Assembly (NCBI GenBank): GCA_009746045.1
Contig: RPFO01000034.1
Span: 4,150,078-4,214,077 of the forward strand
Direction: 5' to 3'
Source of the DNA: Mesostigma viride
Taxonomy: Eukaryota; Streptophyta; Mesostigmatophyceae; Mesostigmatales; Mesostigmataceae
Length of the DNA stretch: 64,000 nucleotides
A program made the position numbers and the translations under genes. Positions 255-53,208 of this stretch are shown in pieces; the stretch's first letter is position 1; the number at the start of each line of letters is the position of its first letter. The notes under the pieces are model-generated. The model ran no database searches and had not been told where the DNA came from. It worked only from the letters and a program-made list of their open reading frames with translations.

Positions 255-2802
255 GCAAGGCCTGCTGCATGGTGGACTTGGCCATATTCGAGCGCATGGG
301 CATGAGGCTCACACTGCACCAGCGACGGGATCCCCCCCCAATAGGCCTGCGGTTCAGCATCCTCGACAAGACGTCACGGTGGCCCGTGGGTGGGAGCAGC
401 CAGGTCAGCAGCCGTGTGCCACCTGTCCTTTTCGGTTCCATGGCACCTGTATCGTCGGTTGCGCAGGGGTTTGTACTAGTAGTACCAGTAATTGCAATAA
501 AGATGCATGACCCATGGGCCATAAAAAGCATGCATGGGCCATGTTGGCCAAGTATTCTGCTTGATTTGCCCGCTGCGTGGGGGTGGGGTGAAAGAGATGT
601 CTAGGGAAGACCGATGTCGTTTTTCATGCATGCCCTTGGCAGCCGGCGGTTCTCCAGTGGAGGCAGCTAGTGAACTGCGTCCTCCATCATTAGACTGCTG
701 TTGCAATTGTTCTCACATCATTCATGTTTTCCTAGTGTGTGTAGACCCTTTACCCTTTACCCGGGATTTAGAACCCCCTTGACCCTTTACCCGAAGTCTG
801 AGACCTGACACCTGATCCCATCCTCCCCACAAAATGCCTGCCCTATTCCGTCCTCCTGTCTCTCACGTCCCTTCCCCACGTGCAGGCGTTCAAGGCAGCG
901 AGCACCATCTGCTCTGAGGAGATGATGCTGTCTCCCGGCACCTACCGCGTGCGCGTGGAGGTGTACCCAGAGCACGCGGCGCGGCTGCCCCACGAGCTCG
1001 TCCTGTCGGCCTACTGCGAGAAGCCGGGCGAGGCTGTGCTAACCGACGTGGAGGAGGACGACGCCTTCCCCTTTTGCCTGCCGGGGTTTGAGGACCGGTG
1101 CGTGGGGCGTGGGATGTGTGGCACAGAGCAATAAAAGGTTTCAAGGACTGGGTGCAGTGCTGGGACGTGGGCAATAGCAAAGATTTCAGGGTGACGACCT
1201 GTGCGTCATCAGGCGCACATGTGATTGGGATGTCGTTAATGAACCTTGAACAGGTTTTTATGAGAGGTGCAGCGTGGGGCTGGGGGTACTGTCGGCTGTT
1301 GGGCTGTGACGTGGGCGATGCGGAATCATTAACAGGCCTGAGCACAGGTGTGACAATGTAGTGGACAACAGGTTTGAATTAGTGCATAACGCATGATTGG
1401 ATGGTGGGTAGCGATGACCGGGGGGCTACCCTAGGTTTCGTGAGGGCTACCCCTTCCGTAAGGGGTCGCTGCACCCTGCTCCATAAGTCAATACGGGGTG
1501 GCTCCATAAGGTAACCCATTTCCTAAATGGAGTTGGTTTATGGTCATGCTGGCCAGGGGTATGGGCTACGGTGGACCACAGACCTGTTTGGGAAGACTTG
1601 TGGCGTGAAGTCCTGAGACGATTCATACCGCTCCTGATCCCACTGTCATGCCGTAGATCGACTCAAGGGAAATATACACTCATGGACAAAATATAGAGGC
1701 ATATTTGTCGTAAGGGGGATATCCACCAGTGCCGCCTCTACTTGCGCCCTTGCCCATGCTCGCACCACCCTGCCGGGGCCCTCGGGCGTCGAGGGAATGT
1801 TCTGCTGCACGGTAAATGCCTTTTCGTGGGGCCTGCTCATCTCCCTCCCTGCAGGTACGGAATGATTCACTGCGCCCCGATGCCTTCGCACGTGCCTGCT
1901 TTACTAAACACCAAAAACAGCAAAAACGTTTTGTCGTTGTTTGCCTCCATAGTAACCACGTTTATAATCGCGCCTGCCGCCTGCTTGTCCGACCCTCTCC
2001 GCAGGTACGGCACTTGCGGTGCCTGTGCCGCCCCCCTTGCCGAGTCCCACGTGTCGGCGTTTGGCAAGCGCTTCCACGGCAGCTGCTGGGCGTGTGCCCG
2101 CTGCCGCCGGCGGTTCCCGCTGACCAACGCGCAGGTGTTTGTGACGGAGGACGGCATGCCACAGTGCGCCGCCTGCATGGCTGCCGCCGCGCCCCGGTGC
2201 TGCGGGTGTGACAAGGTGAGATTAAATCATGCCATAAAGTTATGCGGGTGTGACAAGGTGAAATGTGTGCGGGTGGGACAAGGCGCCAGGGCTCTGCAGC
2301 TACCGCTGCGGCGGCTGCACAAGGCAACCTCCTACAAAGCGGTTCTTTTCCGATCTTTTAGGGTTTTGACAAGGTGGGACTAATTGTGTCCGACAAGTGT
2401 GGCTCTGCTTTCCTTCTATGAGTTACTTCATGGAAGTCATTATGATTGTTTCACCGCAATTATTTCTTTTCGGTCCCAACAAGTTGCCATCTCTGTCTCG
2501 TCTAGTCCTTGGGCTGCAGTCCATGCCCTCTCACTTCCATTCCTGAACATCATACCCCGCCTGATGCTGTCCCTTGATGACGCGCCCATCTGCGCGCGCG
2601 CATGCCCCAACGCCACGTCGACCCCTGCCAGCCTATCCTGGGCCGCCACGTGGCGCTGCTGGGGAAGCAGTGGCATGCCGAGTGCCTGACCTGCTCACGC
2701 TGTGGGGGGCGCGTGGGCGCGTCCTTCTACACCGTAGACGAAGCCATGCTGTGCAGCGGCTGCAGCAAAGGGGCCACCGACAACCGGCCTGCACAGGGCT
2801 GA
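255..2802 (+). CDS. Calpain-like protein, 3' part: domain III followed by two LIM zinc fingers
   Basis: Four exons, 255-403, 886-1097, 2005-2215 and 2632-2802, join in frame across GT-AG introns and give the last 246 residues; the first visible exon begins inside a codon, so the gene continues off the left edge. Residues about 10-105 resemble calpain domain III: RLTLHQRRDPPPIGLRFSIL, then LSPGTYRVRVEVYP, the usual 'IGF...PGTY' pattern. LIM 1 has ligands C124, C127, H144, C147, C150, C153, C174 and C177. LIM 2 has C185, C188, H205, C208, C211, C214, C231 and C234, with 16-residue spacings. The stop (2800-2802) follows a short tail. LIM fingers are protein-binding modules, so they may anchor the protease to a partner, perhaps cytoskeletal (inference). 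The catalytic domain is not in the window, so protease activity cannot be judged. The domain III assignment is by pattern only; the LIM assignment is firm. Confidence 0.72.
1098..2004 (+). other. Intron of the calpain-LIM gene with a decoy acceptor
   Basis: Non-coding. At 1841-1870 there is a pyrimidine tract, CAG and GTACGGAATGATT. This closely resembles the true acceptor and exon start at 1991-2025 (CAG, then GTACGGCACTTGC), so the acceptor region looks duplicated about 150 bp upstream. Nothing else is recognisable. Confidence 0.4.
2216..2631 (+). repeat. Intron with three degenerate copies of its own 5' splice junction
   Basis: The exon ends TGCGGGTGTGACAAG before GTGAGA. The same junction recurs in the intron at 2243-2261 (TGCGGGTGTGACAAGGTGA, identical over 19 bases), at 2267-2285 (the GT changed to GC) and at 2361-2379 (GGGTTTTGACAAGGTGGGA). 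Confidence 0.75.
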
Positions 2803-8400: not shown

Positions 8401-11400
8401 CAACTACAGCCTGCCATGAACTGACCAGCTATCATTTGGCTAGGATTTGAAAGCTATCCCACTACTCCTGTCATCATCATGTACCATGTCCACAGTCAGA
8501 AAACCATGAAGCTATGCCTGCCTTGCACCACAGAGTATTACTGAGCTCCTTCCCCTTGCCGTCACATTTAGCTAAGGTAGGCCGACGCAGTGCCGGGCCG
8601 GCATCGTCGACAACCATCGGCGCGCTGGCAGAGCCGGGCCCTGATGCAGAACCCCTCCTTCTTGGCCTGGGCCATGGTTGCGTCCATCTCGTCTGCCATG
8701 CGCTTCTTTCCCTCCTTATCCCGGAGAGCCCCAACCAACTTTGCCTGTACCTCGTCGGGCACTTTCCTGCGCAGTCTTCTTGACGGTCCTCGCCCTACTT
8801 GGTTCAGGCATCTCGTCACCAATCAGGTGACCGACTACGCGGGAAATGGTTGATGATAACCCCTTCTTGCAAGCGTTGCACTTCACCAACTGGCTTCCCT
8901 TGTCTGTCCTTCTAATTTTCTGCACGTAGTTCCAGCCCGGATACCTACCCCCCTGCGTTTGCCTGTTGCCCATCCTCCCCGTCAGGATCAAAGTCGTCAA
9001 GCTCATCGTCTGCCATAGCTGTTGGCTAATAGCTGTCAAAACCAAACAAGAGAGCTTAGGCCTAAGAGCTGAGGCCTAAGAAGTCACGAAACTAGATACA
9101 TAGGCTGACCTGCAAAATAATGCATCATACGTCTTGCCGACTGCCGACTGCCAACAATTGCAGTCATTTTCAACAGCTTGCCTCTGCGTGGCCACTCAAT
9201 TTTCACAAGCTAGGCTGGTTACGACGTAGCTCTGTGAGCGCCACGTGGCTTCCCGTCACCTTCAATTTTCGCTGCTTACCACGTGCACGGCCGCGCACGC
9301 CGCACCTTTCCATGCACTGGGCGAAATTTGGCCGAAATTCGGCCAAGTCGGGCAAGTTTAGGACCGAAAGGACGGGTACGACGCCCACTTCACGTATCTC
9401 GTATTTTCGCCATATTTTCGCTGTATTTTCCCCGTATTTGTGCGTACTGGGATACACTACTGGCGACGGTGTGCGCTGCTGAGGTGGGCGAGTAACAACG
9501 ATGGCGGTAGCGACAACAAAGACAGTCTCGATATGCCGTACGTGCTGCAGACTTGGTAATGTATGCCCAGCCCCCCCCCCCTCCCGGTTTGCCAGCACAA
9601 GCCTGGCGTGCTTTACATCCACCATTACCACCACCTTATGCGACATATGCTGCATACGTGCTCTGTACCTGCCCCTTGCCCCTTGTACATCCCCCCTGAT
9701 CGCCCATCCAGCACGAGTTTGGCGCGCTCAACATTTTGTTCAACAACGCGGGCGTGATGCTCATGCAGGACAGCGATGCGGAGAACACGCCCGAGGCCAT
9801 CATCGACACGACGTTTGACATTAACGTCAAGGTGGGGGTGGGATGGAAACCGTGCACCATGGTAACGTGCGTGCAGGTGGGTGGCATCACGCAGCCCTCA
9901 TCGACGCAACCATGGACGTGAGCATCTAGCTGGCGGTGCAGATGTTAGAACCAAAGTGAACGTCAAGGTGGAGGAGTAGAAAGTGGCAGCAGGCTGTACT
10001 GGCCGTCATGGTTTGTTGAGAGCTAGAAACAGCACCCAGGGATGGACCTCGAGGTGTGCCGGTAAGCGGGGAAGGGAATGTAATCATTGGTGGGTGCATG
10101 GCCAAGAACACGGCTGGGTGAAAGGTCAGGTCAGCAACTCAGTACCATGAAAGTGGGTGGCCTTTCTGAAAAGCCCGTTTTATTTTGCCTTGCGTCGTGC
10201 ATGCCGGCCCCCACCAAGCACCCACATGCCCCCTCTCCCCCCCCTCTGTGCATACCCCCCCCCCTTCCCCCCCCTCCCTGTATCCATATCCCTCCCCCCC
10301 GCACACCCTGTGCACATACCCCCCCCCTCCCCGCCGCCTCCCATACCCACAGGGCGTGATCAACGGCTGCAAGTACGGCATCCCTGCCATGCGCCGCGCG
10401 GGCGGTGGCTCCATCATCAACACGGCGTCGTTTGTCGCGTTCATGGGGGCTGCCACGCCGCAGGTGACCGCGGCCAGCATACACAGTCACTTGCATAGTA
10501 CACTGTAGTTTGCTTGCACGGGCACTTACGAAAGGTGACCGCGGCCAGCATACACGTGCACGTGATTGTGGGTGCGTGTGCAGGAACCCTTTTTGGTACC
10601 CTTCATCTGCGTGCACGTACATACATCATGCATGGATTCTTGCGGCGTCGAGGCTGTACGTCATGGGCGTCTCATCGAAGCACGAGCATGCATGTACACA
10701 GTTCTTTACTAACCATTTCATTGCCACCCTTGTCCTTGTTCTCAGTGCGTGCGCCAGATCACACACATGTACACCCTTGCCTACTGACTGACCGCTGTTT
10801 ACCTTGCACGCGCGCTGACATCATCGCCTGCGGTGGCGTGCGCCAGATCGCGTACACGGCGAGCAAGGGTGCGGTGCTGGCAGCCACGCGCGAAATGGCG
10901 GTTACACATGCCAGGGAGAACATCCGCGTCAACGCGCTGTGCCCCGGACCGATCCACACCAACCTGCTCATGAAGGTGGGGCGTGATGATGTACCCCTTT
11001 ATTGTGGTATATCATAGGAGGGTGGGGGGCATTAAGTTTGTTCAGCACCGACCTGCGCATCAAGGCGGGGCAGGATCAGCCGGATGGACACATAGGGCAC
11101 AATGACCTCACATGCCACCGTCCAGCTCATGCAGGCGGGGGTATGATAGCTAGGGCATTATGACCTCACATACTACAGACCTGCTCGTGAAGATGGGCGT
11201 TGTGGTGTACAGTATGAAGGTGGGGGCTTGTGGTATATTGCGTGAAGGCGGGGCATGGGGCATGGCGACCCTATTGACCAGCAACCTGCTCGTGAAGGTG
11301 GGGCGGTGTAGCGAACCCCAGTATTTGCAGTATCTTGTATGAAACGCCGTGTTGGGTGAATTGGTGACCCTAGCTGCATCAGTGTGATGTGGACTTGGGT

Positions 11401-12621: not shown

Positions 12622-13454
12622 CCAGCCTTGCTATCCACCGGGCATGCCTGCTGAACCATGGCCTGCTTGCTGTGTGTCAGGGTAGCCTGTGGCAAGCGTT
12701 GGCTTTTGCAAATGGCATTGGGAAGCCTGGTGTGCACCAGTGCTAGTGCGAAGTCACATTATTATTTCGCTGGCAACATTTGGCTGAGGCAGGTGTACTA
12801 TAGCAAGTTTTATGATCTTAGTAACAGGTTTCAGAGGAACGGTACTTTGTGTACAGAACTTATCAATTAGCTACATCAACAAGTGACATTACTGTGGTAC
12901 GAGAGCATCCATCTATGAAGAATGTAGACACGCAGTGATACTTCAGGTGATACTTCAGAGGTTAGGTCCTTGCAACAGACCGGCGCCTTCTAGGTATACA
13001 TGTATCAGGTACACATGTACAGTTGTGGATGTGTAAATTACTTATGGCATGGTTATTTCTGGCAATGTGACCCCAGACCCCCCGGGGGTCACCCTCGCGA
13101 AGCAGTGGTATCATGTACACTTTGTAATTATGTTGCAACCGTGTATAGGTACACATGCGTACAAACGATCCCTGCAATCTGTAGCTGAGGGTGTATCAAT
13201 CTGGGCCTCTGACGGCGTTTAGAAGGTACGGGTGGCTCTTGGTCATCTGGGGCTTCTGACCATAATAGTAGTTAACTCAGTATGGGCGTATCATCGCAGG
13301 CGTGCTAATAGAGGTATTTATTTCCATAGAGGGTGATTCATCGGGAATCACCCTGCAGGAGAGTGATCGCACAGCAGTGGTGGTTACAACTGGACACCCC
13401 TGGCCACACTATAGGAACACCTGCCCTGATCACGCGAGGTTGGTTTAGCTAAAC

Positions 13455-13625
13455 CGTGTAGGTCTCAATGAATGTCAGCCAGCCGTGATTTTCAATGTCC
13501 ACGGCTACACATGTCCACCTCACTTCATTTCCATAATCCTGAACGGCTTGACACATGCGGATAAGATAACAGCAGGCTCGAGCTAATTCTTCCAGCTAGA
13601 TTTCTGGCCTGCGCTCGTCTGCCCT
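13455..13625 (-). mobile_element. Dispersed repeat (ACCAGCGCAGG family), minus-strand copy
   Basis: The reverse complement reads GAGCGCAGGCCAGAAATC, then TTAGCTCGAGCCTGC, GTTATCTTATCCGC, CGTTCAGGAT, GTGTAGCCGTG and ACGGCTGGCTGAC. It matches the element at 53691-53850 block by block. Related copies lie at about 15575-15740 (plus) and about 3605-3705 (minus). Confidence 0.65.
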
Positions 13626-13805
13626 TACAGTAGAGGACAGCTCAGATGAGGATTATATCCACCTCTAGTACGTGACTATATGGTTGCAGGGGCGTGATCG
13701 ATGCAGACGATATTTGTAACTGGTTGTCTCCTTGATATTTGTAACTTTCGTGCAATCATTTTTCTAGTGAGATTAGCATAGTACTCGATCCGTGGCATGC
13801 CCATG

Positions 13806-13863
13806 TCAAGGAGACAACCAGCGCAAGTACTTACTTACTGGCCTGCGCTGGTTGTCTCTTTGA
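13806..13863. repeat. Inverted repeat, 20-bp arms, 18-nt spacer
   Basis: TCAAGGAGACAACCAGCGCA at 13806-13825 pairs with TGCGCTGGTTGTCTCTTTGA at 13844-13863, with one mismatch. The arm is the 5' end of the dispersed family also seen at 15575, 52678 and 53691, so two element ends face each other. Confidence 0.8.
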
Positions 13864-13974
13864 TATCAATTTGGGCCTGCCGATCGATGCAGTCTGCTTC
13901 CCGCATCAATTAGTATGCAACCCCAACAGTTGTCTCACTTGTTATGAATTGGATCGATTGATCAATTAATTATC

Positions 13975-14413: not shown

Positions 14414-14849
14414 ATTAATTAATTAATAATAATGAACGCATACTTCAAGGAAATAGCAATTATTTTATGGTGGTCAAGCATCTGTCGGGAGCATTCCTAT
14501 CTGCTTTCTCCTTCACATCGAAGTTTTCTGATAGACAGGTGAAATATTTGAGATGCATGCATGGCAAATTTAGTTTGCTTGCTTCAAGCCTCTAAGGCAT
14601 GCAAGTCAAACCCGTAAGGCATGCGACGTAAAGAATCCAGAAAGGATCGTACCTGTGAGCCGCATATGGCTAAGAATAAAAAATACGTCCCGATCCCATA
14701 AGACTCAGGCAGTGCTGCATTCACAAAAGGAATGTCCTTTCTTTTACCTACCAACTGGTAACATGGATACTACCTACTGGTAACGTCCAGGTCTAAGGCA
14801 ACCTAAACAGCCCTGTACAAAAACATCATGCCCGCACCCAAAGCCGGCC

Positions 14850-17800
14850 TCAAGGCAGATCCGCAAGGCTCCTCTTTGGTGGTGGCGGCCCAGCAGCAAA
14901 GACTGTTTTCTTTTTATACGCGCCCTCGCTCGCGCTGTTGGCCTTTGTCTTCCACGTGACCTTGTACGCGGGCCGGATCTCGTTCTGCTTCGCAAGCGCC
15001 TCGAACTTGGCCGCGACGGCGAGCGCACCGCCGACGACGCGGATGTCCTCGCACAGCACGGGCCATTGCGTCTTGCGCACCTTAATCTCCGCGGCTGCGC
15101 AAAACCATGCAGGAAAAACCCAGTACCGGAGAGAGAAACGGGCAGAAACGTGAATTGGTATTGAGGAACGTATGATCCTCCACATAGATGTTCCTTGATC
15201 ACGAGGTTGGGTGGGGGTGGGGTGGGGGTAGGATTGGGACCTTGGGGGGGGGCAGCAAACTAATTCCTGCCTGGTGTGAACCTACAGAATCGGGCACTGC
15301 CATCGCACACGTGCAAGCCAAGCCAAGGGTCGATGTGTTGCGCAGGCAGTTCGCTCAAACTGCCTCAGTCTCAGTCCCAACACGGCAACACGAATCCTTT
15401 TTCATGCGCATATAAGAGCGCACCCGCAGGAATGCCCTGACTCTTTCTGTTGCTTTTCAGGGATTAGATTGCTTCCATTGACTTATTAGCACGTACCCAC
15501 AGCCGGCACGGGCACCTCACACTTGGCTGCCTGCTTCATTCCCAAATTTTATCCTGTTCAACGTACATCACATGAGACAACCTGCGCAGGCCAGAAATCT
15601 GGAGAATCTGGACCATGGTAGCTCGAGCCTGCCGTCACCTGACCCACGCTTGTCGCCTCATTCAGGATGGAGTGGAATACGTTAGCGTTGTATGTTAAAA
15701 TCATGGGTGGCTAACGTTCAGTGCCAGACCCAAGCGGTTCAGTGTAGTATATCAGAACGTACCCACAGGCCGCCAAAACTATTTACTACCATACTACTAT
15801 ATAAATATACGTATCGGCTAGTTGGAATACTAGTGTACTAGTATATGTACAAGAACATACCAAACGTCGGTATACATGTACAAGAACATACCAACCGTCG
15901 GCGCGGAGGCGTCGCGCACGTTCTCTGGCGTGCGCAACTTGCCGGCATCATGCTTCAAGATTTCGTTCATCGCCTCCTCGTGGCTGTTTTTGCGCAGCGC
16001 GGCGCCCGGCTCGATGATGGGCGCGCTGCGGTCGCCCACACGCTTGAGCGCCGCGGTCGGGTTGTGGGCGACACCCTCAAACTTGCTGGCCATCTCTTTT
16101 AGTGCCGAGCTCTGGGTGGGGGAGCAAAATAAAATGGTGGGGTGGGCAGGGAGGGCAGGCGGGCGGGCGGGCGGGCAGGCAGGGCGCCGTCAGGGATGAA
16201 TGCATGCGTCAGCTACACTAGGAGGAGCGGGGAAAGAAGCGGGAAGCAGGCGGAGAAGAGACGGGAAGGTGGTAGGCCACAGGCGAGAAGCAAAAAGTAA
16301 ACCAGAAGCAAACAGTAAACCAGACAGTGAAGGCACGAGCGAGTGTGGGCAAAAGCTGTCTTGTGAACGCGTGGTGCGCGCAAGTGGCGCATGGACTAAG
16401 TGCATTGTGCCGGATGCGTCCGCCGTCACGGTGCGTCGACGGTTGTTCGTGCAGACCTCGTTCCTGGGACATTGGTGGCAGAAACCAAACATGGGTGGCC
16501 ACAGGCATACGGCTTTGCAAAGCACCCCCGTATTAAATGCGGCTTTGGGGGTTGGCTTGCGACAATGTTGGCATGGTAAGCGAGAGGGTGACATGGCGGT
16601 GCAGTGGCACATGGGGCATCCCACGATTAGGCCAGGTACTGCTAACAAGCAGTCCCTATACCTGTTTTCTAAGTGGTCTGTTTAGGGTCCCCTCGCCTCT
16701 GGCCTGTGGCTAGCATCGCTTGTGTGCCGCGTCTCGTTACAGGAATACTGGGCTGGCAGGGATTTGGGAAGTGGAGGCGTGCTCAAACCGTGGGGACTAC
16801 ACTTACGGATAGTAGTATACAAGAAGAACGCAAGTGTGGGCAGGCACGGCCCGTTCCGTTCCATGGGGGATAAGGCGTGGGTGTGCGTGACGCGTCGGTA
16901 ACCCACTTGCCTGGATGCAGGGCAGCGTTACTGCCTCGGAGTGCCATGTTGCCGGATCGAGAGGTGGAAAAGGCAGGTCACAGTGCTGCCGGGATGAGAG
17001 TACTAGGAAAACTGCATAGCTAGTGCCTGCACTCTCATTAGCCTAAAGGAGGGGACTTGGATAAAGGATTAGCTAGTGTCAGCGCTCACCTTCGCCTGGA
17101 CTAAGGGCGAGGACACTGCCTCGGGTGACCCCACGACGATGACTGGCTTCGACTCCACCACAGGTTCGGGCGCCCGCTTCAACTCCACCCCTGCCCAGGT
17201 GCAATCCATGTCCCCACCCCACCCCACGCCCAACCCACCCACCCACCCACCCACCCACCCACCCACCCAGCCACCCAGCCACCCACCCACCCACCCACCC
17301 ACCCACCCACCCACCCACCCACCCAACCACCCAACCACCCACCACCCACCCACCCACCCACCCACCCACCCACCCACCCACCCACCCACCCACCCACCCA
17401 CCCACCCACCCACCCACCCACCCACCCACCCACCCACCCACCCACCCACCCACCCACCCACCCACCCACCCACCCACCCACCCACCCACCCACTCATCCA
17501 CCCACCCACCCGCAGACATGGAGATGAGCAAAGGCTGGGTGATGCCAGCAGCTGCAGGTACGCTGGGATATATATGCTAAAAAAGCGCGAAAAAAGAAGT
17601 GGACACCCGCTCAGATTCATCAACATCCTCTTTTTCCCACCCTCACTGACGCTGGTTGTGATCAGCAACGAGACTATGTGACCACGACAATAGTGATGAT
17701 AATATAATAATAATGATTACAATAAAAAATAATAACAGCATTGATATTGAAAATACAATTCATGATGACAGCTCGCAGAGGGCAGGGAGAAGACATAAGG

Positions 17801-19967: not shown

Positions 19968-20105
19968 CTGCGGTGTATGGGTGGCGAGGTGGTCGTGAGT
20001 GGCCGCGGCAGTAGCGCATGGCAACCATGATGGCGTGGCGACATTGCATGATGCAGCGCGCAGCAAAGGTTACAATCAGCCAACTATTGCGTGCGCATGA
20101 AAGTG

Positions 20106-41600: not shown

Positions 41601-44600
41601 GTTTTCCTTGTGGCGCCTGCCTCATGTCTGCCCCCCCCCCCCCCCCCCCCTTCTTCCCCCCCGGATGACGGCTGCCAGCCGCTACGGCCTGGTCCACTCG
41701 GCGTGGTCAACCTTGGAGCACGTCGCGGTGCTGGCGTTCGGCTTCATGCCCTGGCTTTGGGATGTGAGTGGTGGTGGGCCTGTGGGACGTGAGGGGTGGT
41801 GGGCCCGTTGGGGAGCGTACAGTGGAAGTCGTTTGGACATTTCCGCATGCCCTGTACACCGTCGAGATGTTTTGGCATGCCCTGGCTGTGGGGCGCGTGT
41901 GGTCTGTTCACTAGTGGCGCGCTCTACGCCACTGGGATGGAACATGCCCTGGCTGTGGACTGTGAGCGGTCCACTAGCAGATGCTGCGTTCTCACCACGT
42001 TCGAATCGATGACAATCGTCACTCATGGATGTACTGGCGGGGACCCTCGAATCACTATGTAGAAGGGTGAGTGAGGGTGCACAGGTGATCTGGTTGGGCG
42101 CATGTGATGGCATGGGCCGTGGAGGTGAGGCCGCGTTTGTCAGCGTAACTTGCTGGTAGTGCACAAGACCCCGACCGCGCCCCCACCCGGCACACCCCCC
42201 CCCCCCCCGCACCCCCCCAGTGAGGCTTGCGCACCAAACCAGCTGGGCCGTCTGCGAGGTTCAGCCTAGTTGTACCTTACCGCGGGGTGTCGTGCTGGCG
42301 GAGTGCCAAGTGAACGTGGCGCCGACTTAACGGCCATCGGTCTGCATTGGGCTGCGGCCTGTGCAATGTGCTTGTGTCCCCTGCATTGCTGCCTGCCTGT
42401 TCGTGCTTCTGCTGTCACACGTTGGTTGGTTGGTTTGTTGGTTGGTTGGTCCTGCACACTTGGCGTGGGCGGTCCCACAGCTGTCAGCGGCGGTGCTTGT
42501 GCGCTTCGGATTTGATGTGGCCAGCAACGAGATTCTGCAGACGATTATCTTCCTCGCTGTTTATAATACCATCGGCCAGGTGGGTGCTGCCGGGCTGTCT
42601 GATGCAGCAGGGAGATGTTCACGATGATCGATGCACACTTGCCGACACTCTTGTGCACACACATATGTGCTTATTTTTCACCGTCTTCCCCATGCTTAAG
42701 AATGGGGTCCGACCGACCCAGGGCCGTGATCAACCGGCCCAGGGCCGTGAAGTACAACAGCGAATCCAGGGCTGACAATCTTAAAGTGGAGACCTATGGG
42801 ATCTTAAACCTGGTGCATAATGTAGTCCTGGTCAGTCTGCACATCTATGTCGTGTAGCACTGACCAGGACGTAGCAGCCTTTTGTGCCTACTTTAAGATC
42901 TTTCTGCTTAAAACCAGCCCTGCGATCTTAATCCCAAAGTTCTAAAATCCAGGGTCTCAAGATCTGAAACCTGGGATTCTTGAACATCAAGGAGGCAGTG
43001 TACTAAAATGTTCAAATGTAAAAACACACACAGACATGCTATCTGCAATCATGCTTCTGCCGACATCAAATTTGCCAATATGACACCTTCTAGAGTAGGA
43101 AAGCAGTGCGGTCAAGGACTTACACCTTGATGAGTTGATCAAGTGGTGCCTTGGCCCAAGGACGTTAGCGGTTGGGGGGCTTTCCATACTATGTTACATT
43201 CTAGGACTATAGTAACCTACCCCCCTTGTGAACCCTAGCCATGGCCCTGGAGCTCTGGTGGCCCGTGCTGTGTGTTGTTTCCACAGCGACGCGCGCACGT
43301 GTTTCCACAGCAATGTGTGCGGGTGTTTCTGCAGCAACGCGTGTGGACTGCTTGAGTAGTGATTAAGCAAGGACAGGCAGTCAAAGGCCTCATTGTGACA
43401 CCCGAATAACGATCAAAAGAGGACAGGGAGCCAGAGGGCTGATTGATTGCAATGTGGAGCGTGGACGAGCAAAGTGAGAATGAAGGGGCAGTTTTTTAGC
43501 CTGAGTGGGTGCTCGAAAATCCTTTTTGTACCCAGCGGTATTGTGAGCGTGAATCGATCATCGTCGAAACCTCATTCCACCCCATTAAGTTCACTACAAT
43601 GTTCACGACATTCCGTTGAACTCATGCGTTGTGCCTTGCCTCGTGACACCTTGGTTTTTGCTACTGTCCCCAGGTCATGGGGCTCCCCTGGAGCATCTTC
43701 CACACGTTTGTGCTGGAGGAGAAGCATGGGTTCAACAAGGTGCGCAGACGGCTTGAATTCATCCACGGTTTTTGCCCCGGCTCAGTGGCTATTGTGTGCG
43801 CCCACTGTTTGCGCGCGCGTCAGCACTTTCTGCCCCGACCGTTGTGCATCACCTGTGTGTGTGTCGATGGCTTTTTCATCGGTCATGTGTGCGTCGGTTT
43901 TTGGAGCCTGGATGCGGCGTAACGTCTGCCCCATTACTAAGGAAGATGTAGCGTGAGTTTCGTCCAAGCGGCGCGTCTCTCCTCAGGCCGCTCTGCTCCT
44001 CCAGCACGCCCCCAGATTTTTCTGGGTAGGTAGCCAGGGCCTCCAATGCGATTGCCAGTCAGAAGGGTCATCGCTGCCTAGATTGACGGTGCTGTGGCGT
44101 CCGAGGGCGGGTTGGGATGGGGGGGACGCATCCATCCATCTTGGAGGGACCGTACGCGTGCAGTTAAAGGAAAACCATGTGTTTATTGTTTTCGTGTGTC
44201 CTTGTCACGGCTGAGTTTGTATGACATGACTAAACAACAGGATTTGTGCTGAACGCGGAGCAAGGCGGTAAAGGTCTGTTCAATCCACAATTGTATTCAT
44301 CTCCCTGTGCACAATTCGGTGGCGTGTGCTGCCTCTCCTTGATCACGAGGTCCACCCTCACGTCGCCACGCGTGCACGTAGCATTCATTCCTCACCATGC
44401 CCCTTGTCATCAAAATGATCGGAAGCCAACTTGGGGTTGACTGTGATGGCTGCAGTCATGTACCCCCCCCCTCCGGCCCATCTTACCCCCATCTCCCCCG
44501 TTTCCCTTTTGACCTCTTCTCCTATCCCCCCCCTGCCCCCCCACACCGCCCATTCCCCTCCCCTTCTTTTATCACCCCCCTCACCCCCCCCCAGCAAACC

Positions 44601-47600
44601 CCCTGGCTCTTCTTCATGGACATGGTCAAGAGCAACCTGCTCACGGCCATCATCGGACCGCCTGTCATCGCCGCCATCATCGCCATCGTGCAAGTGAGAG
44701 GGCGAGGGGACTGCCTTGTCTGGTTGTCTAGCCACGACCACGGATAGGAGGAACCGAGGGCCAGGCACAGGGCACTACCTTGACAAGCGGTGATCTCAGG
44801 CAGGATCGTCTTTATCAATCATTATACTTATTCTCATACTACTATGTATGCATGTGTTGGAGTAAGGCACTGCTCCTTTTGTCCTAGGTGACCACTGGTG
44901 GCCTTGATAACAAGGTGAAGGCACAGCTCCTTTTGTCCTAGGTGACCACTGGTGGCCTTGATAACAAGGTGAAGGCACAGCTCCTTTTGTCCTAGGTGAC
45001 CACTGGTGGCCTTGATAACAAGGTGAAGGCACAGCTCCTTTTGTCCTAGGTGACCACTGGTGGCCTTGATAACAAGGTGAAGGCACAGCTCCTTTTGTCC
45101 TAGGTGACCACTGGTGGCCTTGATAACAAGGTGAAGGCACAGCTCCTTTTGTCCTAGGTGACCACTGGTGGCCTTGATAACAAGGTGAAGGCACAGCTCC
45201 TTTTGTCCTAGGTGACCACTGGTGGCCTTGATAACAAGGTGAAGGCACAGCTCCTTTTGTCCTAGGTGACCACTGGTGGCCTTGATAACAAGGTGAAGGC
45301 ACAGCTCCTTTTGTCCTAGGTGACCACTGGTGGCCTTGATAACAAGGTGAAGGCACAGCTCCTTTTGTCCTAGGTGACCACTGGTGGCCATGATCACAGG
45401 GTGAAGCTTGTGAATTAGAGTGACCGTGCAGCTTCCCTGTGCGCGGTAGCAACTAGCCATGCATACGCCCCCCGGTGCGTTGCCCCTGTGGCCGTGCAGT
45501 GTCCGTGGCTCTGTATGTGGTTATTGCAGGGTGTTGCTGGAAGCTCTGCCGCTTCGCACAGCGATCCCTCTTGTGGGCCATCGTTATTGTAGGCACCGGG
45601 ACAGGGGCAGGGGGGAAATCGCTGAATGTGCTCGTAGGCATAGCCTGCTCAGTGCTCACTGACAGTACCATGTTGGGTTAAGGCATTACAAGGTTGGCTT
45701 GCCGTTGGGGGCCAGCAGTGGCATGGGATGGCTGGCCTGCATGGATGTGACGTAGGACCAACGAAGCGTTTTCTACAATCAGTCTTTCTAACAGAAAGCA
45801 TTTGGGGCATTGACAGCCAGGATACCTTGCATGTGGCTTTTCTCGGGGATTGTTGGGGCCTCCCCTTCCATGCCTCGTGCCTCTGGCCATTACTGTTTAT
45901 TGTTATGGCTCACCTTTATTATTATTATTATGATTATTATTATTACTACTACTATTATTGCTATGATTATGGCTCGCATTGAAGCTGTGCAGGGGCAGGG
46001 GGTCGGTTCCTGCCCGCTGTGCCAGTAGTGTGCACATGACAGCATGACACTCCCCATTATGCCTTTAATGGACTTACACCCTGGATTTTACATAATGCGT
46101 TGGATTTGATGCCATGCATTTTGCGCTTGTGCTTTTCCTAACCTGTGTTCACCCCCTCGCCAACCTGTTTGCGCTCGCTCCATTAGCTCTAGTCGGGTCC
46201 CTGTTCCTTTCCGCGCCCTCTTTTTCGTTCCCTGCATGCAATTCCACCTGGGCACTCCTTTCTGCCCCCCCACCCCTCTCTCTCCCTCTCCCTACGACCC
46301 CCACCCATCCCTCGCCTTCTCCCTCTGCCCCCCTGCTATCTCTCTCCCTCGCCCCCCCCCCCCACACACACACCGCTGCAGCGCACGGGCCCCCTCTTCC
46401 CGCTCTACCTGTGGCTCTTCCTCTTCATCTTTGCGTTGGTCATGATGACGGTCTACCCCACGCTCATCCAGCCGCTCTTCAACAAGTTCTCGCCGGTGAG
46501 GCATGGCATGATGTCGTGGCATGAGATGTGCCACAAGATGTGGCATGAGATGTGGCATGAGGCATGGCATGGCATGAGGCATGGCATGACATGTGGCATG
46601 AAGTATGGCACACGCTGTGGCCTTGTGCTGGACGTTTACTATGCTAAGCAGTGGCCAGACCCTCCGGCTGCACTCCCCCCATGCACCGCCACATGCAAAT
46701 ATTTCGTGTATTGCGTAGTCGACGTGTGTGTGGATTTCATGTTTTGGTAGCCTTTTTGTCCTTCGGATCTGCGCAAGTTATCGTTTTAAATGGTTGTGTG
46801 TGGTTTCGTACCTCCATTACCATACTTGACATGTAGTGTGTATTGCCCAGCTCCGGCAACTTCCATTTTGTAAATCCGCTCATGCCCTGCCCGCCCCGCC
46901 CCCCCCCACCTCCTACCCCCCACCCCACCCCTCTACCCCCGCCCGCACACCGCCGCCCCCCCCTGCACACCTCCATGCTTCCATAATAACACCACCGCTC
47001 TGCATTCTCAGAACCGGTGTTCCCCCAGCCCTCTCTCCCTATGCTCACCTCAAGCCCCCCTCAAACCTGTGCAAACCTGCCACCCTCCCCACCCTTCTCT
47101 GGTGCTGGTGCTGGTGCTGGTGCTGGTGCTGGTGCTGGTGCTGGTGCTGGTGCTGGTGCTGGTGCTGGTGCTGGTGCTGGTGCTGGTGCTGGTGCTGGTG
47201 CTGGTGCTGGTGCTGGTGCTGGTGCTGGTGCTGGTGCTGGTGCTGGTGCTGGTGCTGGTGCTGGTGCTGGTGCTGGTGCTGGTGCTGGTGCTGGTGCTGG
47301 TGCTGGTGCTGGTGCTGGTGCTGGCGCTGGCGCTGGCGCTGGCGCTGGTGCTGGTGCTGGTGCTGGTGCTGGTGCTGGTGCTGGTGCTGGTGCTGGTGCT
47401 TCTGCTGGTGCTGGTGCTGGTGCTGGTGCTGGTGCTGGTGCTGGTGCTGGTGCTGGTGCTGGTGCTGGTGCTGGTGCTGGTGCTGGTGCTGGTGCTGGTG
47501 CTGGTGCTGGTGCTGGTGCTGGTGCTGGTGCTGGTGCTGGTGCTGGTGCTGGTGTTGCTGATGCTGGTGGTGGTGTTTCTGCTGGTGTTATTGCTGCCTC

Positions 47601-50600
47601 CTGCAGCTCCCCGAGGGCAAGCTGCGGGAGGACATCGAAGCGCTCGCGGCACGCCTCAAGTTCCCCCTCAAGAAGCTGTTTGTCATCGACGGCAGCAAGA
47701 GGTCCAGCCACAGCAACGTGCGTGCCACTCTGTAGGGTGGGGGGGGGCTACCTTGCTGCTGAAGGGGGGAAGCCGGGGTTCCCACGTGACGCAGTCTACG
47801 TGCTTTTAATTAACTAATTAGTCAAGGGGGGGAACCAGGGGTACTCAGCCATATGTGGGGAGGGGGAAGCAGAGGCATTACGTTCTACGGGAGGGGCGTG
47901 TAGGGGAGGGGGCAGCTGCATGGTGCGGCAGGGGCGGTTGGCTGCAGGAGGGGATGGTGAAAGAGCCACACCAGAGGCGGTCTGGGCAGGCTTTGGCCAA
48001 AGGTTTCGTCTGTCCACGATGTGTTGGCCAGGATTGGGTGTGGACTTCTGGGCAACGACACGACTATATATCGCCAATAGGGCCGTTGAGGATCCAGCCA
48101 GGTGGCGCACAACCGGTGCAGGCGGCACAGAACGCGTATTATCACGCAAGCTGGAAATAGCAGCCGTGATGATTCCTGGAGGCCGCTCATCCCCTCGCTG
48201 TAGTCATCTCATGTCAAGGTGTGTGCCCCGTGGCTCGTCTAGCAGAAGCCCTTACTGGCCACAACAAGGGTTTTTTATGCCCAGAGCTACTTGTCGCATC
48301 TCTCTGTGATCTCACAGCTCACCCACCAGGTGCCTGCCGGTTGCTGGTTGCACGTCTCCTTCACTCCCCTCTTGTTGGGCGCCCCCCCCCCCCCTTGGGC
48401 TGGCGCAGGCCTACATGTTTGGCTTCTTCAAGAACAAGCGCATCGTCCTGTTTGACACGCTGGTCAACCAGGTAGGGACAGGCAGCGTTCACAACCATAG
48501 TTCGGAACATCTCACTCACGGCCATGCGGTGGGCACACAGCCAGGCCCAAGCAGGTCCACCAGGTACGCTCGATAATTCTTCACAATCGGGTGCAAGTAG
48601 GCACGCTCAAGAGGCATGCAACGCGCGGTCATGCAGGGACGAAACTAGTACATCTATCCACCTACACCAAGTCTTTGCCTACTTGTAAATCCATGTGTCG
48701 GCATGCTTCTTACCACGCACCAGGTGGGTGGGCCGCATGTACAAACATATGCGTCAAGAAACATGTATGTACCCACACGCTTGTCAACCAGGTAGGCACC
48801 CGGCGCTAGCAAAAGCAAACAAAACCGCAAGATGGCGCTGCAAGGCACGTGCACGCATGGGCCAGCGGGCTGCTGGTGCACGCAGTTCCCAATGTTGGCT
48901 GTGAAATTGTATACTAGATCTGATGCTTGAGAATTCATATATCAAATATAATGCCCGTGGCATCATATATCACATGTAATGCCTGTGAGATCTCAGCACA
49001 TACATCATGTGGTACAGTATCGTTTAACGGGGTAATATATATGTACTGTGGGCGCTATATGCATAGTAGTATACTGTGGGCGCTAGCCCTAACGAAACAG
49101 CATGCCATGCAATGCTATGTACCGGAGGAGAACGCGAAATCGTGACGCGATGGGAGTGGAACATGAGACCTTCTGAGTTCTGCCCGCACAATCAACCGTG
49201 TGACCAGCAGGACTGTTGTTTGCTGAGGATGTACAAATCACTTACTCCTTCTAACGCCCTGACCTCTCCTTGTAATCCAAAACACTTAAGCCAGGCTTTC
49301 TTGTTGCGAGGCAAATGTGTGCAGGTACTGCCGCATGGCAACGCAAGCCCTACCTCATATGCCGCCTCTGTGCGTGTGTGACGATCGTTAATTATGGTTC
49401 TAATGCTGCAACCTCTCCTGTGCCCCCCCCGCCCCCCCCCAAATACCCACCCGATACCCACTTACCCACAGAGCACTCCGGAGCAAGTGGTAGCGGTTAT
49501 CGCGCATGAGTTGGGCCACTGGAAGCTCAACCACACGCTGTTCAACTTTGTGACCATGCAGGTAAGGTCACGGTGGTAGAGTGACCATGCAGGTATGGTT
49601 ACTGTAATGGAGTGACCATGAGGTATGGCCACACGCCTTACCTTGTGCCATGCCATCCCTGCCAAACCGTATTCTTCCCTTTTTGCCCTAGGATGCGGCT
49701 GCGGGGGTGCTTGTATGCTAGCCACGTTCTCCCAACCGCACACTTCCCGCCACCTGCCCCATGCGCTGCTGCTGCCCCGCGTGGAACCGTGTACGCAACC
49801 ACACACACGGGCATGCTTGCGCTTCAACGCCCCTATCATGCACCTTCCCACACACAGACCCCAGGTGTTGCTGCTGCTCCACTGCTGCTGCTCCACTGCT
49901 GCTGCTCCACTGCTGCTGCTCCACTGCTGCTGCTCCACTGCTGCCGCTCCACTGCTGCTGCTCCACTGCTGCTGCTCCACTGCTGCTGCTCCACTGCTGC
50001 TGCTCCACTGCTGCTGCTCCACTGCTGCTGCTCCACTTGTGTGGTCATCCATGTTCGTGCTTGTTCATTTTCTTTCTCCCAACCCCACGGTTCCTTGCCC
50101 CAGGTCCTGCTGCTGGTCCAGCTGGGCGGCTACAGCCTCTTCCGCACCTACTCGGACGTGTTCACCAGCTTTGGCTTCTCCCTTGGTAACGGCGTGCAGC
50201 ACCCGGTGCTCATCGGCCTGCTGCTCTACAACTACATGCTGTCGCCAGTAGACCACCTGATCCACTTTGGGCAGAACCTGCTCTCGCGACGATTTGAGTT
50301 CCAGGTGAGGCCTCTTTCTGCTCTCACTTCCAGGTGAGGCCTCTGTCTGCTTTCACTCCAGGTGAGGGCTCTTTCTGCTCTCACTTCCAGGTGAGGCCTC
50401 TTTCTGCTTTCACTCCAGGTGAGGTCTCTTTCTGCTTTCACTCCAGGTGAGGCCTCTTTCTGCTCTCGCTTCCAGGTGGGTTCTCTTTCTGCTCTCACTC
50501 CAGGTGAGGGCTCTGTCTGCTCTCACTCCCAGGTGAGGGCTCTTTCTGCTCTCACTCCAGGTGAGGCCTCTTTCTGCTCTCACTCCCAGGTGAGTTCTCT

Positions 50601-53208
50601 TGCTGCTCTCACTTCCAGGTGAGGTCTCTTTCTGCTTTCACTCCAGGTGAGGGCTCTTTCTGCTCTCACTTCCAGGTGAGTTCTCTTTCTGCTCTCACTT
50701 CCAGGTGAGGCCTCTTTCTGCTTTCACTCCAGGTGAGGTCTCTTTCTGCTTTCACTCCAGGTGAGGCCTCTTTCTGCTATCGCTTCCAGGTGAGTTCTCT
50801 CTCTGCTCTCACTCCAGGTGAGGGCTCTTTCTGCTCTCACTTCCAGGTGAGGGCTCTTTCTGCTCTCACTTCCAGGTGAGGGCTCTTTCTGCTCTCACTC
50901 CAGGTGAGGGCTCTTTCTGCTCTCACTTCCAGGTGAGTTCTCTTGCTGCTCTCACTCCCAGGTGAGGCCTCTTTCTGCTCTCACTTCCAGGTGAGGTCTC
51001 TTTCTGCTTTCACTCCAGGTGAGGGCTCTTTCTGCTCTCACTTCCAGGTGAGTTCTCTTTCTGCTTTCACTTCCAGGTGAGGGCTCTTTCTGCTCTCACT
51101 TCCAGGTGAGGTCTCTTTCTGCTTTCACGTCCAGGTGATTTTCTTGCCCCTTCGAGTTGCAGGTGAGGGTCTTGCCCCTTTCGTGTGTAGGTGAGGCTCT
51201 TTTTGCATGATGCCAAGATGGGGTTCTTGGCTGCCTGTGGCAGTGTCGGCTTCCAGTACAGGCAAGCCCCCCAGTGCTGTGGTGGGTAGACGCGGTGAGT
51301 GTTGTGCAGCACCTGTCCTCACTTGGGGGGCCTTGGCGTGTGTTTGATTCGTGATATTTGGTATTGCAGAGCTGCGCATATTGCCAGCTGTACTGTAAAC
51401 AATAAAGAGTTCCTACGCTGTTGTGCTTAATGGACCATATGGCCCGCGCTTCAAAGTGCGATGATAAAACTAGAGCGCACGTAACTGGTAACATGTGCTT
51501 GGTCATATAGTTCCGTGGCTAGTCAGCAAGGCAGAATAAATAGTATAGTATTCAACGTTTGCATTGTCAGCCAGCCAATGAACTCACAGAAAAGGCTAGC
51601 GAGCATGATCGCTGGCCTCTGCATATTACGTATGGTGTCTGTCTAGGAAGGCAAGAGTGGGTGACGCGGGGTGGGGGAGTTACCCTGCCACGCCGGTTCC
51701 GCTGCATCTTGAACCCATCAGTACCTCTCTTCCAGCATATTTGCTGGTGATGCTTACGATTTCTGGAAGATTTTGCCCATCCACAAAAGGTAGATGGCGC
51801 TCATTTGTCCATATTTAGGCTTGCCCTCTCTAAGTGCGTAAGCCATCCCCTCCAGCCGTGGCCCTGGCCCTTCGTGTGAGAATTTTTCATGGCAGTTTTA
51901 TCCAGGCAGCCCTGGCTGCCTCCAACGTTTGCCCTGCATATGGCACGCATGCCGAGCAAATGACAATGACTCCCCGTGGTCTGGCTGAGTTCCAGTTTCC
52001 ATCGGCCATCTCACTGAGGAGTGAGGATGCCTGCCTGTTTTACGGCAATGGCACTAGGTTGCATCCACTTAATTTCTATAGCAGTATTTATCTTACACCG
52101 CTGGCTTCGCACTGGCCCTCTTCCCCCCTTCCCCCCTTCCCCCCTTCCCCAACTCGTCAACATGGCAGGCGGACGCCTTTGCCAAGGACCTGGGCTACTG
52201 CGAGTCCTTGTGCTCGGGTCTGGTCAAGCTACAGGTGAGATGCTTGCGTGAGCAGTGCCTTGGGGTGAGTAGTGCCTTGGGTGCTCTAATGTGCCTGCTC
52301 TTGGCCCGTGGTTTGCGTATGATTTGGTGGGTACACACAAGACCTTGCCATGCGGGTGCGCGCCCCACCCGTTCTTTGCTGTTTGCTGTTGTCCCCATGA
52401 CTCCTCCTCCTGTGTGGTGGCTAGTGCGCGCATAGGCTTTGCAAAAGGGGATCAAGAAAGGTGTTGTGGGTGACCTACGCTAGCAGGTGTTTAGGAACAG
52501 CAAATCCCAGGCAGTCGGATGCAAGCACTAGTTCTGGCAACACCCAGTTAGCCTGACAAGGAGGCCGGTTTATCAACGGGTAAGACTGTAGGAGTCTGTT
52601 GTTTTTGTACATGGGTCTGCCGCATGGTCTCTACTTGGCTTTGGTGGTCAACCCTTTTCTTCACCTTTCCAAAACATCAAAGAGATAACCAGCGCAGGCC
52701 AGAACTTACTATTAAGTTTTTTCTTTTACCAATGTCACATTACATCTATCGCGCACAGATGGGACCGTGAATTTCGACCAGGATCCAGATTCCAGGAGAA
52801 TTCGGCTACTTCTGTCTCATGCTTAGATCTTCTGCTATTCCTGATGGCTGCAAGCCCTGATGGTTAGTACAGATTATGAAAACTCTTTTTGCTGTTCTCA
52901 TCATGGCAGCCATGCTGAATGCATCATACTTTTACCGTGTGATGCTCAAAGGTGTTTCCCAGATTTTTGGTGCTCCGACCTGTTGAGTCCTAACCCAGAT
53001 TTTTAGTGCGCCAACCTAACTTTCTTTCGCTTCCCACTGACATATGTGGTTTGTGTTGTGGTCACAGGAGGAGAACCTATCCAGCATGGACAGCGACCCG
53101 CTCTATTCTGCGTACCACTACAGCCATCCGCCTCTGATAGAACGGCTGTCTGCGCTATGTGGGCCTGGGCAATCCATTGCGGACCTTGCAACCAAGAAGG
53201 ATCAGTGA
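23650..53208 (+). CDS. STE24: CAAX prenyl protease 1 (Ste24-type zinc metalloprotease, M48)
   Basis: Complete 12-exon gene, 440 aa (family about 420-475): 23650-23837, 41679-41763, 42481-42579, 43674-43739, 44595-44693, 46382-46495, 47607-47717, 48409-48471, 49472-49561, 50104-50304, 52169-52234, 53068-53208. Every junction is GT-AG with matching phase, including the one across the 17.8 kb first intron. Family blocks in order: [10 protein letters not shown] and [13 protein letters not shown] near the N terminus, [36 protein letters not shown], the zinc site HELGH (H287, E288, H291), third ligand Glu370 in [15 protein letters not shown], and [12 protein letters not shown] at the C terminus. 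It cleaves after the prenylated cysteine of CAAX proteins in the ER or inner nuclear membrane. The ATG at 23650 gives about 21 residues before FETYLDLRQ, as in the family; an in-frame ATG at 23578 is less likely. Confidence 0.95.
24536..41444. repeat. 16.9 kb minisatellite, 39-bp and 32-bp units, in STE24 intron 1
   Basis: The long unit (39 bp) is GGTTCTTGTGGTGGCGGCAC followed by CATCCTGTGGGGACCCCGC. The short unit (about 32 bp) lacks ACCCCGC; variants have one G or C more or less at the junction. There are roughly 450 units, nearly free of substitutions: the few seen include CACCATC to CGCCATC at 26471, 33780, 40989 and 41098, and small deletions near 33868, 38490, 38707 and 39078. The first unit (from 24536) and the last (41397-41444) are diverged and resemble each other. 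No stop codon occurs in any of six frames. Long and short units alternate irregularly. Confidence 0.98.
41763..41969 (+). repeat. Copies of the exon 2 donor in STE24 intron 2
   Basis: The junction is ATGCCCTGGCTTTGGGAT, then GTGAGTGG (41746-41771). GCATGCCCTGGCTGTGGGGC lies at 41874-41895, and ACATGCCCTGGCTGTGGACT, then GTGAGCGG, at 41942-41969. The intron start GTGAGTGGTGGTGGGCC is also repeated at 41789-41807. Confidence 0.75.
42766..42930. repeat. Imperfect palindrome in STE24 intron 3
   Basis: The core is GTCCTGGTCAGT and ACTGACCAGGAC, both exact over 12 bp. Outer arms are ATCTTAAAGTGGAG against CTACTTTAAGAT and CCAGGGCTG against CAGCCCTG. Two short tandem copies of CCAGGGCCGTGA precede it. 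A MITE-like fold-back element is possible. Confidence 0.6.
44870..45410 (+). repeat. 54-bp tandem array in STE24 intron 5
   Basis: Ten copies with exact 54-bp spacing (44886, 44940 and onwards to 45372), almost identical; the last is diverged at its 3' end. Each unit holds an acceptor-like CTCCTTTTGTCCTAG followed by GTGACC and, 27 nt on, a donor-like GATAACAAG followed by GTGAAG. Because 54 is 3x18, one frame stays open for long stretches on the minus strand; no gene is implied. Confidence 0.95.
45918..45965. repeat. ATT trinucleotide microsatellite
   Basis: Imperfect TTA/ATT repeats with CTA variants in STE24 intron 5. Confidence 0.9.
46496..46615 (+). repeat. Repeats of the intron start in STE24 intron 6
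   Basis: The intron begins GTGAGGCATGGCATGATG. ATGAGGCATGGCATGGC and ATGAGGCATGGCATGAC follow at about 46557-46590, with several GTGGCATGAG variants between. Confidence 0.6.
47100..47553 (+). repeat. (GGTGCT)n hexanucleotide array in STE24 intron 6
   Basis: About 75 copies with rare GGCGCT and TCTGCT variants, ending about 50 bp before the acceptor at 47606. It creates spurious Gly-Ala, Leu-Val and Cys-Trp open frames. Confidence 0.97.
47779..47803 (-). mobile_element. Lone end of the CACGTAGACTGCG MITE family
   Basis: CCCACGTGACGCAGTCTACG, then TGC, followed by TTTTAATTAA; it is the inverse of the left end at 13975-13997. Only one end is recognised here. Confidence 0.55.
48775..48796 (+). 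repeat. Copy of the exon 8 donor in STE24 intron 8
   Basis: ACACGCTTGTCAACCAGGTA, then GG, matches the junction at 48455-48476 (ACACGCTGGTCAACCAG, then GTAGG) with one mismatch, 320 bp downstream. Confidence 0.8.
49580..49630 (+). repeat. Two copies of the exon 9 donor in STE24 intron 9
   Basis: The junction is TTGTGACCATGCAG, then GTAAGG. AGTGACCATGCAGGTATGG occurs at 49580-49597 and AGTGACCATGAGGTATGG at 49611-49628. Confidence 0.8.
49866..50036 (+). repeat. 14-bp tandem array (CTCCACTGCTGCTG)n in STE24 intron 9
   Basis: About 12 copies with a single CTGCCG variant, ending 67 bp before the acceptor of exon 10. Confidence 0.95.
50299..51193 (+). repeat. 28/29-bp array of fused acceptor-donor sites in STE24 intron 10
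   Basis: From the true donor of exon 10 (TTCCAG, then GTGAGGCC) the segment CTCTTTCTGCTCTCACTTCC plus AG, then GTGAGG, repeats. I count 31 further AG-GTGAG-type junctions up to about 51193, the last ones decayed (GTGTAGGTGAGG). Each has a pyrimidine-rich tract, CAG and a good GTGAG donor with no exon between, which is the architecture of recursive splice sites. Confidence 0.95.
52244..52283 (+). repeat. 17-bp tandem duplication at the start of STE24 intron 11
   Basis: GTGAGCAGTGCCTTGGG is followed directly by GTGAGTAGTGCCTTGGG, just after the true donor GTGAGATGC. Confidence 0.7.

Follow-up and report, generated by a model that had tools for sequence, protein, structure and literature searches.

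Copies of exon edges inside their own introns in a genomic window of the streptophyte alga Mesostigma viride

The window analysed here is a stretch of 64,000 nucleotides (C1413:4150078-4214077) from the 440-Mb assembly of the streptophyte alga Mesostigma viride, in which 24 introns were delimited in four genes, all of them with GT-AG borders (24/24). The LIM gene has 3 exons and 2 introns, the SDR gene 6 and 5, the actobindin-like gene (ACT), on the minus strand, 7 and 6, and STE24 (STE) 12 and 11. The spliced STE24 protein is 100% identical to the public model P0001 (jgi/Mesvir1/18278) over 88% of the query, and P0001 matches 10 STE24 junctions exactly. The spliced actobindin-like protein is 100% identical to P0121 (jgi/Mesvir1/18275), with 100% of the query covered, and P0121 agrees with 6 junctions of this gene, in which the position of the 12-base exon 1 was taken from P0121. 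Public protein models back 16 of the 24 junctions; the other 8, which belong to SDR, LIM and the first STE24 intron, are based on Pfam, reading frame and homology. At all 16 junctions covered, the public models, which are gene predictions and not RNA reads, use the outermost donor, and wrong exon models could be ruled out as the source of the pattern described below for these 16 of the 24 junctions. The LIM protein query had no relatives at E<=0.001, and an Rfam scan of the window gave zero matches. According to its main text, the Mesostigma genome paper describes long introns, with a mean of 1142 bp, and 30.1% of the intron space as repetitive; the word start "splic" is absent from that main text (PMC6947507).

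Further along the window, degenerate reading frames that by eye resemble remnants of non-LTR reverse transcriptases lie at 57400-59600 and are followed by a 0.9-kb (CCAT)n array (59678-60612). Outside the gene models, a 155-bp repeat is present twice and a 65-bp repeat three times at 62984-63481.

The first-pass annotation had claimed that about half of the 24 introns contain a re-copy of their own donor junction. We used the last 25 exon bases and the first 15 intron bases of each donor as a query, which was locally aligned to the rest of its own intron. The score cut-off of at least 26 was set after the first score table had been inspected, on the basis of donor shuffled 95th percentiles of 17-24 and a top antisense score of 23. 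With this cut-off, sense copies were identified in the own intron for 13 of 23 donors and antisense copies for none (0/23); adding the first intron of the actobindin-like gene (sense 16, antisense 16) gives 13/24 and 0/24, respectively. When the same 40-mer queries were aligned to all other introns, 2/506 comparisons reached the cut-off in sense and 4/506 in antisense, or 6/1012 together. Dinucleotide shuffling of each intron placed 12 introns at the floor (p = 0.005) and one at p = 0.010. In total, 53 ungapped junction-spanning copies were recovered, of which the STE10 intron accounts for 29, with a density of 2.28/kb in the own intron as compared to 0.012/kb in introns of other genes. The STE6 matches cover intron bases +2..+15 only, which leaves 12 junction-spanning introns. 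ACT4 scored 22 in the main test, below the cut-off, and a gapped extension revealed a copy of exon bases -38..-1. Tandem Repeats Finder, which is blind to exons, detected 19 intronic minisatellites with periods of 12-60, of which 5 begin at most 15 bp from a donor (0.52 expected, P = 1.3e-4). The antisense, other-intron and shuffle controls rule out chance as the source of the copies, and the exon-edge copies inside their own introns in the window are thus confirmed. The copies are as follows.

1843..1860, plus strand: LIM intron-1 acceptor copy, 16/18, 162 bp upstream (exon starts 2005)
2201..2222, plus strand: LIM donor junction, original (exon ends 2215)
2243..2264, plus strand: LIM donor copy, -15..+7, 21/22 identical, offset +42
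ending 2282 and 2373, plus strand: more decayed copies of the LIM donor
9959..9974, plus strand: SDR intron-3 donor copy, -9..+7, at +136 (exon ends 9831)
10505..10569, plus strand: SDR intron-4 donor-block copy, gapped, -37..+36, distance 71, exon half weak (exon ends 10463)
10532-10555, plus strand: core of the SDR intron-4 copy, -3..+21, nearly identical
10747..10760, plus strand: SDR intron-4 acceptor copy, 14/14, 100 bp upstream (exon starts 10847)
11046..11305, plus strand: five copies of the SDR intron-5 donor, at +89, +159, +217, +244 and +322 (exon ends 10975)
11279-11305, plus strand: top SDR intron-5 copy, 25/27
19677..19702, minus strand: ACT1 donor copy, at +240 (exon 19920-19967)
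18908..18943, minus strand: ACT2 donor copy, -25..+11, 32/36, at +119, GT lost (exon 19038-19188)
18074..18227, minus strand: four copies of the ACT3 donor, at +60, +87, +142 and +196 (exon 18275-18397)
16906..16943, minus strand: ACT4 exon-end copy, decayed, -38..-1, sub-threshold (exon 17090-17190)
15842..15870, minus strand: ACT5 donor tandem copy, period 31 (exon 15892-16111)
41780..41811, plus strand: STE2 donor tandem copy, period 25 (exon ends 41763)
41876-41903 and 41943-41970, plus strand: additional copies of the STE2 donor
46504..46601, plus strand: STE6 12/17-bp array from 9 bp inside the intron, intron-only similarity (donor after 46495)
48775..48799, plus strand: STE8 donor copy, -17..+8, 23/25, at +320 (exon ends 48471)
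ending 48563, plus strand: weaker copy of the STE8 donor
49550..49632, plus strand: STE9 31-bp tandem array across the donor (exon ends 49561)
50299..51138, plus strand: STE10 29-bp array across the donor (exon ends 50304)

For STE10, 29 donor copies were listed, with GT kept in all of them and the last one at +858, just past the array. The cases named in the annotation (the LIM intron at 2216, SDR introns 3, 4 and 5, and, in our numbering, ACT1/2/3/5 and STE2/8/9/10) are all borne out, as are the occurrence on both strands, given the minus-strand actobindin-like gene, and the enrichment of own introns over shuffled and unrelated introns that it had proposed to check. The copies range from a 29-copy, 29-bp array at the donor to lone decayed relics about 320 bp away.

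Arrays of other kinds were also observed in these introns. A 54-bp unit that holds two AGGTGA motifs, one of them after a pyrimidine stretch, is repeated 10 times in near-identical form (44864-45406) in STE24 intron 5; for the donor of this intron there is no copy (score 16). The intron before actobindin-like exon 18275-18397 contains an 11-bp array at 18448-18686 (GGGGCAAGGTG on the plus strand), and the GCAAGGTGGGG motif of this array recurs inverted after that exon.

Donor copies lie downstream in their own intron in direct orientation, and acceptor copies lie upstream in their own intron. In the tandem type, the period equals the exon part plus the intron part and both sides match. Local duplication, as suggested by the annotation, is most clearly supported by these cases (STE2 25, STE10 29, STE9 31 and ACT5 31 bp), together with SDR4, which is a 71-bp tandem case by gapped extension only and has a weak exon half. 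A unit made of exon end plus intron start, in adjacent copies and with a period equal to the block length, as in a minisatellite, was found in STE2, STE9, STE10 and ACT5. Among the 18 copies located at least 60 bp away, SDR4 included, the exon-side extension had p<0.05 in 17, SDR4 being the exception, and the intron side beyond +6 was significant in 3/18 (SDR4, SDR5 +322, ACT2). The exon parts of these displaced copies measure only about 7-43 bp, and just 14-26 bp in the copies at distances of 217-322 bp. Such a shape does not fit one large tandem duplication, and the short exon parts of the distant copies mean that subsequent insertions or another round of copying would have to be assumed.

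The proposal that introns are enlarged in this way holds where arrays exist, but not for the longest intron, that of STE24 at 23838-41678 (17.8 kb), since its array is unrelated to its donor, which scores 12 against the first 3 kb of the intron. This intron consists almost entirely of a 39-bp minisatellite with shortened variants, for which Tandem Repeats Finder reports an array of about 454 copies at 24575-41372. P0001 starts downstream of it and hence is without the upstream coding exon 23690-23837.

Within the window, copying is centred on donors. Copies were found for 13/24 donors as compared to 2/24 acceptors (P = 0.0013), those of LIM1 and SDR4, and to 2/25 unused AGGTR sites (P = 0.0006) when the array introns STE5 and STE10 are excluded from the AGGTR count; with STE5 included this count is 20/44, and 6 of the 8 matches listed come from the single 54-bp STE5 array. 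In windows centred on the donor, a downstream copy was present in 14/23 introns. No copies were found for exon segments with their centre 50-100 bp from the edge, either in the window (0/96) or outside it (0/105), and those 30-40 bp inside the exon gave 1/44 and 3/58 copies, respectively. Interior positions of the window's introns, from +40 to +400, were copied at 7-16%. From the interior rate of the own intron, 3.17 donor copies would be expected in the window, as compared to 14/24 found (P = 6e-6), and 3.35 acceptor copies as compared to 3/23. Detection bias as the sole cause of this donor excess was rejected as too small: it amounts to only about 1.5-fold in a simulation in which ages are uniform and blocks measure 25-45 bp (older ages alone would give a larger bias), and a uniform process thus fails to account for the window.

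We also analysed 290 kb of the same contig, from which 32 introns in 8 genes were picked by eye for a clear multi-exon coding signal. The exon boundaries are gene-finder predictions, and some predicted small exons were skipped. For NAP1, LamG and TPT, the donor scores stood in the same table as the exons when the genes were chosen; for the flank genes, the exons were listed first and the donor scores followed. Pfam confirms NAP, LamG, alpha/beta hydrolase, P5CR and chlorophyll-binding among these genes, GENEB has a weak DUF4097 match only, the name of TPT (sugar-phosphate-translocator-like) was assigned by eye, and the alpha/beta hydrolase gene is presumably CGI-58. The LamG/EF-hand gene (L025-L027, C1413:2037175-2054585) has acceptor-edge copies in introns 4 and 9 and no donor copies. 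Two divergent chlorophyll-binding-type genes, one of them confirmed by Pfam, lie about 1.3 kb apart (L008:9653 to L009:2580), each with a single short intron (154 and 158 bp) that has no junction copies.

Outside the window, copies were found for 5/32 donors and 5/32 acceptors (5/31 acceptors in the interior-rate test), as compared to interior expectations of 4.76 and 4.60, and no antisense copies were found for either (0/32 and 0/32). As a group, these independently chosen genes therefore showed no donor preference. All five donor copies are in NAP1, 2 Mb from the window (5/9 as compared to 1.11 expected, P = 0.006; antisense 0/9), where donor 9 lies in an acidic low-complexity exon and its removal gives 4/8. 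Donor copies were absent from LamG (0/9), GENEB (0/6), CGI-58 (0/4) and the four one-intron tests (0/4). The recurrence "gene after gene" of the first-pass annotation accordingly holds for the four genes of the window and for NAP1, but not for GENEB, LamG, CGI-58 and the four one-intron genes. The acceptor copies (NAP1-8, LamG-4, LamG-9, CGI-58-2 and CGI-58-3) mirror those of the donors, in that the intron tail and the exon head are repeated upstream, as in LamG intron 9 (27/28 identical) and CGI-58 intron 3. CGI-58-2 is doubtful: no AG precedes the CGI-58 exon at left 81084, which was taken to begin with an ATG start, and the match (30) may therefore not be an acceptor; without it the count is 4/31.

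Across the 12 genes donor copying is uneven (permutation P = 0.007), and the pooled 56 introns have 18 donor and 8 acceptor copies (P = 0.043). The window was singled out since the pattern was visible there, and its rate is therefore biased upward. When local repeats were searched for donor motifs in a model-free way, there was no clear enrichment in the left flank, the right flank or the window, with the donor motif in 1/27, 2/24 and 6/25 clusters and random means of 2.4, 1.8 and 3.5, respectively. With a home-made gene finder and all of its predicted donors, the counts in the window were 11/26 for donors, 1/26 for antisense and 3/19 for acceptors; those for the left flank (0/25, 1/25 and 1/15) and the right flank (1/22, 0/22 and 2/12) are judged to be uninformative because many of the predictions resemble transposon reading frames.

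These data do not support the suggestion that the AG-GT sequence itself seeds the duplication. In the window, unused AGGTR sites are seldom copied (2/25 without STE5 and STE10) and acceptors are copied too, and outside it donors equal acceptors (5/32 each, with an interior expectation of 4.8). With outside donors no hotter than acceptors or intron interiors, seeding by AG-GT is unsupported as a general rule.

As to splicing, the GT was kept in 17/23 copies examined besides STE10, by a listing method that favours GT-intact copies, and in 29/29 STE10 copies, so that potential cryptic donors, as proposed in the annotation, are predicted from the sequence. For 19/23 copies, splicing at the copy would shift the frame or bring in an in-frame stop; the LIM copy at +42, which keeps its GT, would be in frame and open if used. 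The STE10 copies score as high as the true donor, and the mean pyrimidine fraction in front of them is 0.87 as compared to 0.66 for true acceptors. A recursive splice site motif consists of a pyrimidine tract followed by AG/GT. Such a motif is present at the copies of STE10, the intron examined for it.

Selection could have retained the copies for a role as decoy donors or as recursive splice sites, with STE10 as a ladder of 29 zero-length-exon sites. The retained GT, donor-like scores and pyrimidine fractions of the STE10 copies agree with this, but no selection is needed for a motif to be kept in a repeated 29-bp unit, only 17/23 of the other copies have the GT even in a listing that favours it, and 19/23 would disrupt the frame, which makes the explanation very improbable. 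Insertion of a mobile element or filler DNA at donors, with the copies as target-site duplications, would account for the several copies that are displaced by 70-320 bp with unrelated-looking DNA in between (STE8, NAP1). However, the youngest cases have no insert, their period being equal to the block length, and filler from nearby DNA should also give antisense copies, of which there are none (0/23); we consider this route improbable. In the Rogers model, an intron is born when an exon segment with AGGT is duplicated in tandem, and the copies would be remains of the founding repeat. The direct repeats with AG/GT at the junction are as expected from it, and multi-copy arrays such as that of STE10 resemble the fission-yeast case outlined in PMC4974935. 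The flanks of donor and acceptor of the same intron are nevertheless unlike each other, with a mean score in 23 introns of 10.7 as compared to 11.6 for permuted pairs; the top own pair is ACT3 with 21, followed by scores of at most 13, where the permuted 95th percentile is 16. Moreover, the copies sit inside the intron and not at the acceptor. The dissimilarity of the flanks contradicts birth by AGGT duplication as a general explanation, and we hold it to be extremely improbable.

More weight can be given to a donor hotspot, in which a transcription- or splicing-linked process (R-loop nicks or stalled-polymerase repair at the 5' end of the intron) would duplicate the donors of some genes. The excess of window donors, but not acceptors, over the interior rate (14/24 as compared to 3.17, and 3/23 as compared to 3.35), the similar excess in NAP1 (5/9 as compared to 1.11, P = 0.006), the contrast with unused AGGTR sites (13/24 as compared to 2/25, P = 0.0006, STE5 and STE10 excluded from the latter) and the fact that the effect follows the strand of the gene, as in the minus-strand actobindin-like gene, all speak for it. 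Against it stand the eight outside genes taken together (5/32 as compared to 4.76), with none in LamG, GENEB and CGI-58 (0/9, 0/6 and 0/4), the upward bias from the choice of the window, and the pooled counts of 18/56 and 8/56, which reach only P = 0.043. We regard such a hotspot as possible but doubtful. With slightly greater reservation still, it may be speculated that, in a subset of genes, active transcription or splicing turns the 5' splice site itself into a hotspot of mutation, from which copies are placed downstream in the same intron again and again. Introns would then grow from the donor end and keep dated fossils of the exon edge.

The best explanation, to which we assign a probability of roughly two in three, is general local direct duplication in introns, by which exon edges are caught from both sides. 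Our best reading is that local direct duplications abound in the introns of M. viride and that those crossing an edge leave an intronic relic of it. The copies are in direct orientation and on the corresponding side of the intron, the young periods equal the block length, and exon-interior copies are absent. The order of events would be as follows. Direct duplications of about 20-70 bp would arise locally and build up in introns, with some expanding to minisatellites, and a duplicated block that lies across an exon edge would place one copy of the edge inside the intron. The molecular step may be strand slippage, or staggered nicks or breaks may be filled in and joined. The spliceosome would stay with the exon-proximal original, and with the protein intact through use of the outer splice site the duplication could persist. 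Selection would fix the exon end and 5' splice site of the original as the intronic copy and its flanks decay, which would explain why old copies show just the exon end and about 6-8 intron bases. The donor excess in SDR, the actobindin-like gene, STE24 and NAP1, which is strong statistically and clustered by gene, is not explained by general duplication.

Because exon edges are fixed by coding selection, an edge copy in the intron preserves a duplication as a fossil that can be dated. With such copies, local duplication and the growth of introns can be measured in an alga that has long introns and diverged early among streptophytes. They also offer a natural test of which of two near-identical donors a spliceosome chooses. 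A splicing- or transcription-linked duplication would be indicated if other genes also had the donor excess.

Among the titles and abstract beginnings listed by searches of the open-licence literature, there were no reports of donor-edge copies as such. In the green algae Chlamydomonas reinhardtii and Volvox carteri, intronic tandem repeats are denser towards the intron ends (PMC3887541). The concentration of intronic tandem repeats near intron ends is shared with Mesostigma; that account, as far as its text was available, concerns algae other than Mesostigma and does not report an exon edge within the repeat unit. In human segmental duplications, tandem repeats across exon-intron boundaries, the feature in common with our cases, can alter splicing, and according to that source their copy number varies between paralogues and new introns form there (PMC2812944). 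In Mesostigma, by contrast, the copies stay in existing introns and the public protein models are unchanged. The model of intron birth by duplication shares local direct duplication of a segment holding AG/GT but predicts identity of the donor and acceptor flanks, which is absent from the Mesostigma introns. The work of Zhuo et al. from 2007 is reportedly tied to local direct duplication of an AG/GT segment as well. In plants, the repair of adjacent single-strand breaks gives direct duplications that are short and may or may not have filler between them; these were experimentally induced, whereas for Mesostigma the mechanism can only be inferred. Among the exon-edge copies, it is the donor-biased subset that merits an analysis across the whole genome.
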